From positions 23,923 through 87,922 of the forward strand of contig NZ_JAUYAF010000064.1 of the NCBI RefSeq assembly GCF_030693625.1: 64,000 bases of DNA. The letters are read 5' to 3'. Origin of the DNA: Phenylobacterium sp. (lineage in GTDB: Bacteria > Pseudomonadota > Alphaproteobacteria > Caulobacterales > Caulobacteraceae). The notes under the pieces are model-generated. The model did not search any database and was not told the DNA's origin. It worked only from the letters and a program-made list of their open reading frames with translations. The position numbers and the translations under genes are program-made. Below are positions 61,565-64,000 of this stretch, piece by piece; position 1 is the first letter of the stretch; each line of letters begins with the position of its first letter.

Positions 61565-62944
61565 CTACCTGGCGCGATAGACCACCTTGCCCCCCACCAC
61601 GGTCATCACGGCGTGGGCCTTGGCGATGTCGGGGAACGGGGCGGTCATCAGGTCCACCGAGAAGACGGAAATGTCGGCGGCCTTGCCGACCGCCAGGTCC
61701 CCCAGGTCCTTCTCGCGGAACACCGCATAGGCCGCGCCCTTGGTGAGCATGGCCAGGGCCTGCGGCCGGGTCAGCACCTCGTCCAGCCCCCAGTTGGGAC
61801 CGGCGAAGCCCTGCAGGTCGTGGCGGTAGGTCGCGGCGTAGAACTCGATGAGCGGATCACCCTTCTCCACTGGCGCGTCGGTGCCGGCGGCCAGATGCGC
61901 GCCGCTGGTCCGGAGCGCCTGCCAGGCATAGGCGCCCTTCAGCCGCGCCTCGCCCAGGCGGGCGGGGGCGAAGTGGAGATCGCCGATGGCGTGGGACGGC
62001 TGCATCGAGGCGATGACCCCGTTGTCGGCGAAGCGCGGGATGTCGTTGGGGGAGATCACCTGGGCATGTTCGATGCGCCAGCGCGCGGCGCGCAGTTGCG
62101 CGGGGTCACCGTCAAACGCGGTCTCAAAGGCGTCCAGCACCAGGCGATTGCCCCGGTCGCCGATGGCGTGAATGGCCATCTGCGCCTTCGACTTGCGCGC
62201 CGCCGCCAGGGTCTTGGCCACCACCTCGGGCGGGGTCAACAACAGGCCGGTTCCCGGCGCGTCGTCATAGGGCGCCAGCAGGGCCGCCCCACGCGAGCCC
62301 AGCGCGCCGTCGATGTACATCTTGATGCCGTCCACTCGCACCAAGCCTGTGGGATCAGCGGACGGACCTGTGGTCAGCAGGGTCCCTTGACTGGACAGGT
62401 CCATGAAGTTGTCCACCCGGATCGGCAGGGTCCCGGCGGCCGCCATGGCGTTCAGGATCTCCACGTCCCGGGCCGCGACACTGACGCTGTGCATCCCGGT
62501 CCAGCCGCGGGAGGCGTAGAGGTCCGCCGCCCGCTGGGCGGCCTCGCGCAACTGGGCCTCGGTCGGCGGCGGGACCTTCACCAGCGCCTTGGCGTTGTCC
62601 ACCAGCAGGCCGGTGGGCTCGCCCTTGCTGTCCCGCAGGATCTGGCCGCCGGCGGGGTCGGGGGTGTCGCGGGTGATACCGGCCAGGGCCAGCATCTTGG
62701 AATTGACGAGGATGGCGTGGCCGTCGGAGCGGCCCAGGACCACGGGGCGGTCGGAGACCACGGCGTCCAGGTCGGCCCGGTTGGGGAAGCGCTTCTCAGG
62801 ATAATGGGTCTCGATCCAGCCTCGGCCCGACAGCACCTCGGGACCGGGATGGGCTAGGGACCAGGCCTTAACCTTGGCGGTCATCTGCGCGATGGAGGCC
62901 GTGCCCTCCAGATTCAGGGTCATCTCCCGCAAGCCGACGCCCAT
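61565..62944 (-). pseudogene. YtcJ-like amidohydrolase, N-terminus removed by IS630
   Basis: 459 codons remain, in frame to the stop at 61565. Retained: GWIETHYPEKRFPNRADLD, IHAIGDRGNRLVLDAFETAF (metal-binding His-Ala-Ile-Gly-Asp, quoted in part), RIEHAQVISP and HLAAGTDAPVEKGDPL (metal Asp). Missing: the N-terminal 90-100 residues with the HxH zinc motif of the amidohydrolase barrel. The apparent start MGVGLREMTL is an internal Leu-Met-Gly of the family (usually HxHPLLGGVGL...). IS630 sits exactly at this point, so the gene is inactivated or makes an inactive stub. The missing part should lie beyond the right edge. Confidence 0.85.
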
Positions 62945-62946
62945 TA

Positions 62947-62972
62947 GAGCATTTTTCGATCAGTCTGCATCG
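62947..62972 (+). repeat. IS630 left terminal inverted repeat
   Basis: 26 bases beginning GAGCATTTTTCGATCAGTCT. The orfB stop codon (62960-62962) lies inside it. Confidence 0.88.
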
Positions 62973-63906
62973 TATCCAGCGGCGGCGAAGTAGTTCGCGC
63001 ATTCCCTTGGTGTGAAGGCGTCGATGATTTGAGCGATGGCTGACCAGAGCTGCTCGAGGGTTCTGGCGGCGGCCTTTCGGAGCATGGCCTTGAGCTTTGC
63101 GAAGGCGTTCTCGATGGGGTTCAGGTCGGGGCTGTAGGGCGGCAGGAAGACCAGGGTGGCGCCGGCGGCCTCGACGGCGGCCCTGGCCGAGGCGTTCTTA
63201 TGGGCGGCCAGGTTGTCGAGGACGACGATGTCGCCGGGGCTCAGGGTTGGGACCAGGACCTGCTCGACATAGGCCAGGAACCAGGCGCCGGTCATGGGGC
63301 CGTCCAAGACCATGGGGGCGGTCATTCCGGTCAGTCTCAGGCCGCCGATGAAGGTGGTGGTCTTCCAGTGGCCGTGAGGAACGCTGGCGCGCAGGCGTTG
63401 GCCGCGTAGGGCGCGCCCGTGGCGCCGCGCCATCTTGGTGGTGGCCCCGGTTTCGTCGAGGAAGACCAGCCGGGCGGGATCGAGATCGAGCTGACCCTCG
63501 AACCAGCTCTGTCGCCGGCTCAGGATATCTGGCCGACTTTGCTCGTCCGCGTGCGCCGACTTTTTTTGAGCGTGATCCTGCGACGGTCGAAGAACCGCCA
63601 GACCGCAGTGGTGCTGACCGTAACACCGTGCTCGGCCAGGACCGCCTGCATCTCAGCCAGCGTGATGTCCGGCTGGGCTTCCAGGCGCCCGAGGATCAGA
63701 TCGGCGTGCTTTTCAATGAGGCCTGAGCGCCGATCACCGCCCAGCGGACCGGGCCGCACGTCGCCTGTCTTGAGCGACAGGCTACGCCAACGGATCGCGC
63801 TCGCCGCGCTCACACCAAACCGCACCGCGGCCGCGCGACACGATAAGCCCTCGCCAATCGCGCCGATCACACGCTCACGAAGATCAACTGACAGCGCCTT
63901 GCTCAT
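62960..63906 (-). CDS. IS630 transposase, OrfA and OrfB joined by a -1 frameshift
   Basis: OrfA (63906-63520, 128 residues) is the helix-turn-helix part: [20 protein letters not shown] and [14 protein letters not shown]. OrfB (to 62960) carries the DDE core: [12 protein letters not shown] (Asp 1), [13 protein letters not shown] (Asp 2) and [14 protein letters not shown] (Glu), with D-34-E spacing. The frames differ by -1 and meet at AAAAAAA (complement of 63561-63567), after which OrfB reads [12 protein letters not shown] and on without a stop. A programmed -1 slip here would give a full-length transposase. OrfA starts with GGAGG upstream. All catalytic residues are intact, so it may still move. 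Confidence 0.9.
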
Positions 63907-63971
63907 AGGTGCCAGCCTCCGTCACCAGCACAGAGCTTGAATCAGAATCCGCGGGCCCTGGGAATCCCCAA

Positions 63972-63997
63972 CGATTCAATCAGGTCGCAGAATGCTC
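63972..63997 (-). repeat. IS630 right terminal inverted repeat
   Basis: 26 bases; read inward on the minus strand it begins GAGCATTCTGCGACCTGATT. Confidence 0.88.
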
Positions 63998-64000
63998 TAG

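Follow-up and report, generated by a model that had tools for sequence, protein, structure and literature searches.

Elements of the IS630 family, part of the Tc1/mariner superfamily, share with the element described here a DDE_3 transposase, a length of about 1 kb, inverted repeats, duplication of a TA, and a preference for CTAG. Tenzen and Ohtsubo are said to have found in 1991 that IS630 transposes preferentially to the TA in 5'-CTAG-3'. In the part of the ISY100 report cited here, insertion is described as occurring almost exclusively into TA, with duplication (PMC2170065). The sections of the ISHsp2 paper on which we draw place, in this element of Halomonas, a helix-turn-helix (HTH) in a first ORF and the DDE domain in a second, with an A-run proposed for -1 frameshifting (PMC3606827). 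Our element is alike in having two ORFs (HTH, then DDE) and an A-run motif, but ISHsp2 duplicates TTAA, according to the same sections, whereas ours duplicates TA (PMC3606827). The event reported below is ordinary for IS630, and both the CTAG preference and the A-run frameshift design are already published for elements of this family; the papers searched yielded none on IS630 in Phenylobacterium.

We analysed a stretch of 64,000 nucleotides of Phenylobacterium sp. (the window), whose position 64000 is the final base of a contig of 87,922 bases (C74). We find that an IS630-family element has almost certainly inserted into the TA of a CTA codon of an Amidohydro_3 gene in this Phenylobacterium-like bacterium, splitting the gene.

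The rear half of the gene and the adjoining element

The rear 459 codons of the interrupted gene occupy positions 61565 to 62944 on the minus strand and were recognised by the profile PF07969 (Amidohydro_3) and by rows of aligned homologues. The profile matches this half from position 29 to 472 of 472 with 302.5 bits (cut-off 29.7); because the match begins at position 29, the half is without the front of the domain. In Amidohydro_3 hydrolases, an HxH motif near the N-terminus is a metal ligand. We take the protein to be YtcJ-like. All four NCBIfam matches fell far under their cut-offs and no name was adopted from them. Among named homologues, those nearest to the protein come from Phenylobacterium (L050-L054, 74-91% identity). 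Two uncharacterised Amidohydro_3/YtcJ-like hydrolases in the PDB, 3icj and 3igh, match residues 10-429 of the rear half (E 4.9e-30 and 4.2e-27, respectively); unlike them, the window gene is interrupted.

Next to this half lies a TA (62945-62946; the left junction reads TTA), followed by an IS630-family insertion sequence of 1051 bp with its transposase on the minus strand (62947-63997) and by a second TA (63998-63999), identified from the sequence and from comparison of junctions. The duplicated TA agrees with the initial annotation, made from the letters of the window. The terminal inverted repeats (62947-62973 on the plus strand, 63971-63997 on the minus strand), delimited by aligning the two ends, are imperfect, with 20 of 27 terminal positions equal as counted from the alignment. 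A DDE_3 domain, insertion at TA, terminal inverted repeats, and the CTAG preference place the element in the IS630 family.

The transposase is divided between two minus-strand frames. The first, orfA (63520-63906), is the putative HTH part; it matches NF033545 (transpos_IS630) with 59.6 bits over profile positions 5-121, below the 100-bit cut-off, and HTH_23 with 22.9 bits, below the cut-off of 24.6. The second, orfB (62960-63433 when listed from its first ATG), is the DDE_3 part, with 103.8 bits for PF13358 and 128.7 bits for NF033545 (cut-off 100), and its open frame extends back beyond a run of seven A (C AAA AAA AGT; 63561-63567, minus strand). This A7 run, the presumed -1 frameshift site between orfA and orfB, stands in the same sequence context in all four related loci checked (L083, L048, L101, and L102). 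From the start of orfA to the stop of orfB there are 947 bases, which is not a multiple of 3, and the coding sequences annotated as IS630 family transposase in two plasmid relatives of the element (L101, 74% identical; L102, 68%) likewise span 947 bases. A -1 frameshift would join orfA to orfB. The case for it is built on the A7 run and the span of the coding sequences, since the RNA fold downstream of A7 was not significant (z -1.25), 26 of 200 shuffles being equally or more stable. The two-ORF layout is probably the normal design of the element, not decay.

The front half on a second contig

Sequence to the right of position 64000 is absent from C74 because this base ends the contig. When residues 1-89 of an intact homologue (L010) were used as the query against this genome, they matched contig C64 at 139-384 on the minus strand with E 7e-23 and 60% identity. 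Six places were found in all, and the second best had E 0.003, which leaves C64 as the sole convincing contig; the five weak places (E 0.003 to 0.7) may correspond to more distant amidohydrolases. C64 opens with 138 bases of the right end of the element, then TAG, then the front of an amidohydrolase gene. Read on its minus strand, the junction is GTC GAC GCC CAC GCC CAC C, then TA and the element. The frame, MRRQ...FVDAHAHL-EHSAT-stop, has 94 aa and terminates inside the element: 88 codons from MRRQ to HAH are followed by Leu, five element-derived residues, and the stop. This front piece has a signal-peptide-like start and the HAH motif; scored alone against PF07969, it reaches 23.0 bits over profile positions 1-20, less than the cut-off of 29.7. 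We also compared the front halves of homologues (12 loci tried, of which 7 gave a query) with the first 3000 bases of each of the 10 flanks found at right junctions of the element. All seven queries match C64 (E 2e-47 to 1e-23), and no front-half match better than E 0.11 was found in the first 3000 bases of the other nine flanks.

When the halves are joined with one TA, they read GCC CAC GCC CAC CTA ATG GGC GTC, that is HAH-L-MGVGLREM in frame, and the rejoined frame runs for 548 aa from MRRQ without a stop. This is the ORF length of two intact homologues, L010 and L011. The initial annotation had predicted much of this: that excision of the element with one TA would restore CTA ATG GGC (Leu-Met-Gly) in frame, that the HxH motif belongs to the missing half, and that minus-strand code for an amidohydrolase N-terminus, ending in HxH...L and continuing into MGVGLREM, should lie just beyond 64000. 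C64 bears out all three points, with DAHAH on its half of the gene and the window half beginning downstream of the motif. The base from which the missing codon had been deduced, the G at 64000, led to the right result, but every one of the 10 flanked right junctions of the genome has this base after TA. Since TAG is common to all of them, this base alone could not prove the locus.

The continuity of an open frame would likewise be a poor guide. When the C74 frame was set against the 10 right flanks, at least 84 codons stayed open in four of them (C65, 258 codons; C89, 233; C64, 121; C32, 84). An open joined frame as sole evidence is weak, and it is homology that tells the flanks apart. Pairing the 9 left flanks with the 10 right ones by open frame, in every combination, was discarded as too weak to match copies, because long open frames are common in DNA of 68% GC.

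The homologues also indicate what stood at the broken codon. The HxH motif with its context was sought in 29 related loci, and 12 rows were recovered, the other 17 loci being outside the counts that follow; two pairs among the 12 rows, L010/L054 and L018/L055, seem to be duplicate records. Leu occupies the place of the broken codon in all 12 rows, encoded by CTG in 3, CTC in 9, and CTA in none, so that TA is present at this codon in 0 of the 12. The next residue is Met in 9, Ser in 1, and Leu in 2, and Leu-Met-Gly (AHLMG) is found at the broken place in 9 of 12 rows. Five named Phenylobacterium homologues read His-Ala-His-Leu-Met at the joint. Excluding the broken codon, the two halves contain 1 CTA, 39 CTG, and 10 CTC codons for Leu. 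The allele hit by the element most likely carried the rarer CTA, a deduction made because IS630 elements, on the portion of the ISY100 report cited, enter almost exclusively TA (PMC2170065). The comparison with close strains lacking the insertion, proposed in the initial annotation, could be made in part: the related species L050-L052 have the gene uninterrupted (protein 87-91% identical), with CTG or CTC and not CTA at this codon. The search turned up no strain of the same species, and the comparison rests on related species.

Gene order in relatives connects the two contigs. In a Phenylobacterium MAG record (L051, JAGNIV010000034.1), an intact homologue has C64 genes upstream (a PAS-domain gene and the beginning of the adjacent gene for a PAS/HWE histidine kinase) and window genes downstream (the frames labelled 60485+, 59760+, and 58534+). 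In four others (L077, L078, L079, and L080), C64 genes lie within the 20 kb fetched around the homologue. This gives 5 of the 10 relatives compared; in the remaining five (L050, L052, L053, L081, and L082), covered for about 0.3 to 3 kb upstream only, no C64 genes were found at E 1e-15. The nearness of the genes of both contigs in relatives is thus a direct observation, as are the junctions, the TA on both sides, the frame, and the homology.

Copies of the element and their target sites

The left end of the element occurs on C74 and 8 other contigs (9 left junctions), and the right end on 11 contigs, among them C74 and C64 (10 flanked right junctions). We rechecked these counts by pattern, with up to 2 mismatches, and recovered the same 9 left and 11 right ends (that of C74 included) plus one C22 fragment with 1 mismatch; reversed-pattern controls gave 0. 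The element is therefore present in about ten copies, because there are 10 flanked right junctions, and the assembly lacks one left junction. The description of the insertion as "single, clean, probably recent" does not stand as to "single". Of the 194 contig ends, 19 lie inside the element (8 left, 10 right, and that of C74 itself), and the shared contig ends have 141 bases, equal flank bases counted, which we infer to reflect a k=141 assembly graph. Position 63955 of the window is T in C64 and C32 and G in C74 and the other eight right ends, so the genome contains the element in two or more sequence types. What the window displays is probably a collapsed consensus of the copies and not the local copy; this would follow if C64 is the true neighbour, because its copy differs at 63955.

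Elements about 97-98% identical occur in two other same-genus genomes (L083-L086; over 1003 and 175 bases in G069, and over 137 and 133 in G091), with CTA or TAG at the four readable ends. Their presence in G069 and G091 suggests recent spread. On C22 (L048; G000:C22:57000-64000), a full-length IS630 relative, 73% identical, abuts fragments that correspond to 583-729 and 999-1051 of the window element, an arrangement that looks like a deletion derivative beside a second element sharing a TA.

Each of the 9 left and the 10 flanked right junctions has TA, duplication being demonstrated for the window locus only, where both flanks are known. TAG follows the element at 10 of 10 flanked right junctions, and CTA precedes it at 8 of 9 left junctions (site CTAG), even though in the DNA sampled 5.4% of TA sites are CTAG. 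Base rates by themselves give a chance of 3e-5 for 10 TAG in 10 and of 0.0016 for 8 or more CTA in 9; the two ends of one target site are non-independent tests, and the other left and right ends are unpaired. The sole left exception is the window locus itself, with TTA: the target of this copy is TTAG, which reads CTAA on the gene strand, and not the CTAG preferred by IS630. Across 21 loci (relatives, two plasmids, and the C22 relative), CTA stands before 8 of 11 element starts (exceptions L087, L093, and L048) and TAG after 10 of 12 ends (exceptions L094 and a C22 fragment). The L048 start becomes CTA when the alignment shifts by one base.

Competing explanations and consequences for the gene

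According to our preferred explanation, a Tc1/mariner-type element would have transposed by cut-and-paste into the TA within CTA and duplicated it. The gene now consists of two pieces, a front of 88 codons with HAH and a rear of 459 codons without the motif, neither of which should yield active enzyme. C64 and C74 are separate contigs and the insertion is spanned by no single sequence; that both halves flank one element today is what we infer. It is conceivable, though improbable, that later recombination between copies separated the halves, so that C64 and C74 flank different copies. About ten near-identical copies are available for such exchange, the element-bearing contigs break at the element, and C64 differs from C74 at position 63955, where it shares T with C32. 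Assembly collapse of the repeat explains this mismatch, however, and L051 and four other relatives keep the C64 genes near the homologue, so there is no call for a rearrangement. We consider it highly improbable that the window junction is an assembly artefact in which an intact amidohydrolase was falsely joined to the element. C74 does end within repeat structure, and the 141-base shared ends fit the putative k=141 graph, but the two halves, though on separate contigs, are broken at one and the same codon, and each is bordered by TA and the proper end of the element; an uninterrupted copy of the gene was not found in the genome.

The frame starting at the ATG at 62944, directly after the element and its TA, could in principle be a real shorter gene, independent of the insertion. 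We give this almost no credence: the front of the domain (profile positions 1-28) would be missing, and in 9 of 12 homologue rows that Met stands inside a continuous HAHLMG. Judged by the homologues, the ATG is an internal Met codon, because they run on through that place, as the initial annotation had also concluded in rejecting 62944 as a gene start. Finally, since the gene around the element shows no decay and the TA is present in duplicate, the insertion might act as a reversible switch, precise loss of the element and one TA restoring the full frame in part of the population, which would then carry the active gene. This strikes us as very improbable; no sign of excision, in the form of an uninterrupted copy, was found in the assembly.

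Returning to a plain insertion, we compared the selection on the two pieces with that on intact genes. Against L050-L052, the rear half has a dN/dS of 0.12-0.19 (0.10-0.22 among intact relatives), and the front half (84 codons) one of 0.235-0.446 (0.221-0.460 among intact genes). There is no visible decay, which is compatible with the recent insertion initially proposed but gives no date. A polar effect on the neighbours is unlikely, because the upstream PAS gene on C64 is divergently oriented and the window frame closest downstream points towards the amidohydrolase.

Searched with the rear half at E 0.001, the genome returned this half once and no other homologue; the front half gave one strong match, and the gene was nowhere found uninterrupted in the assembly. 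An amidohydrolase match is absent from 4 of the 23 same-genus genomes listed beside G000, one of which (G008) is only 73% complete, and the enzyme seems dispensable in the genus. The locus provides a clean worked case in which one IS insertion is traced across two contigs of one assembly. It also carries a caution: where a window stops in a collapsed repeat, the element it displays is a consensus, and the next base may be uninformative on the locus. For the organism, the insertion means the probable loss of one hydrolase.
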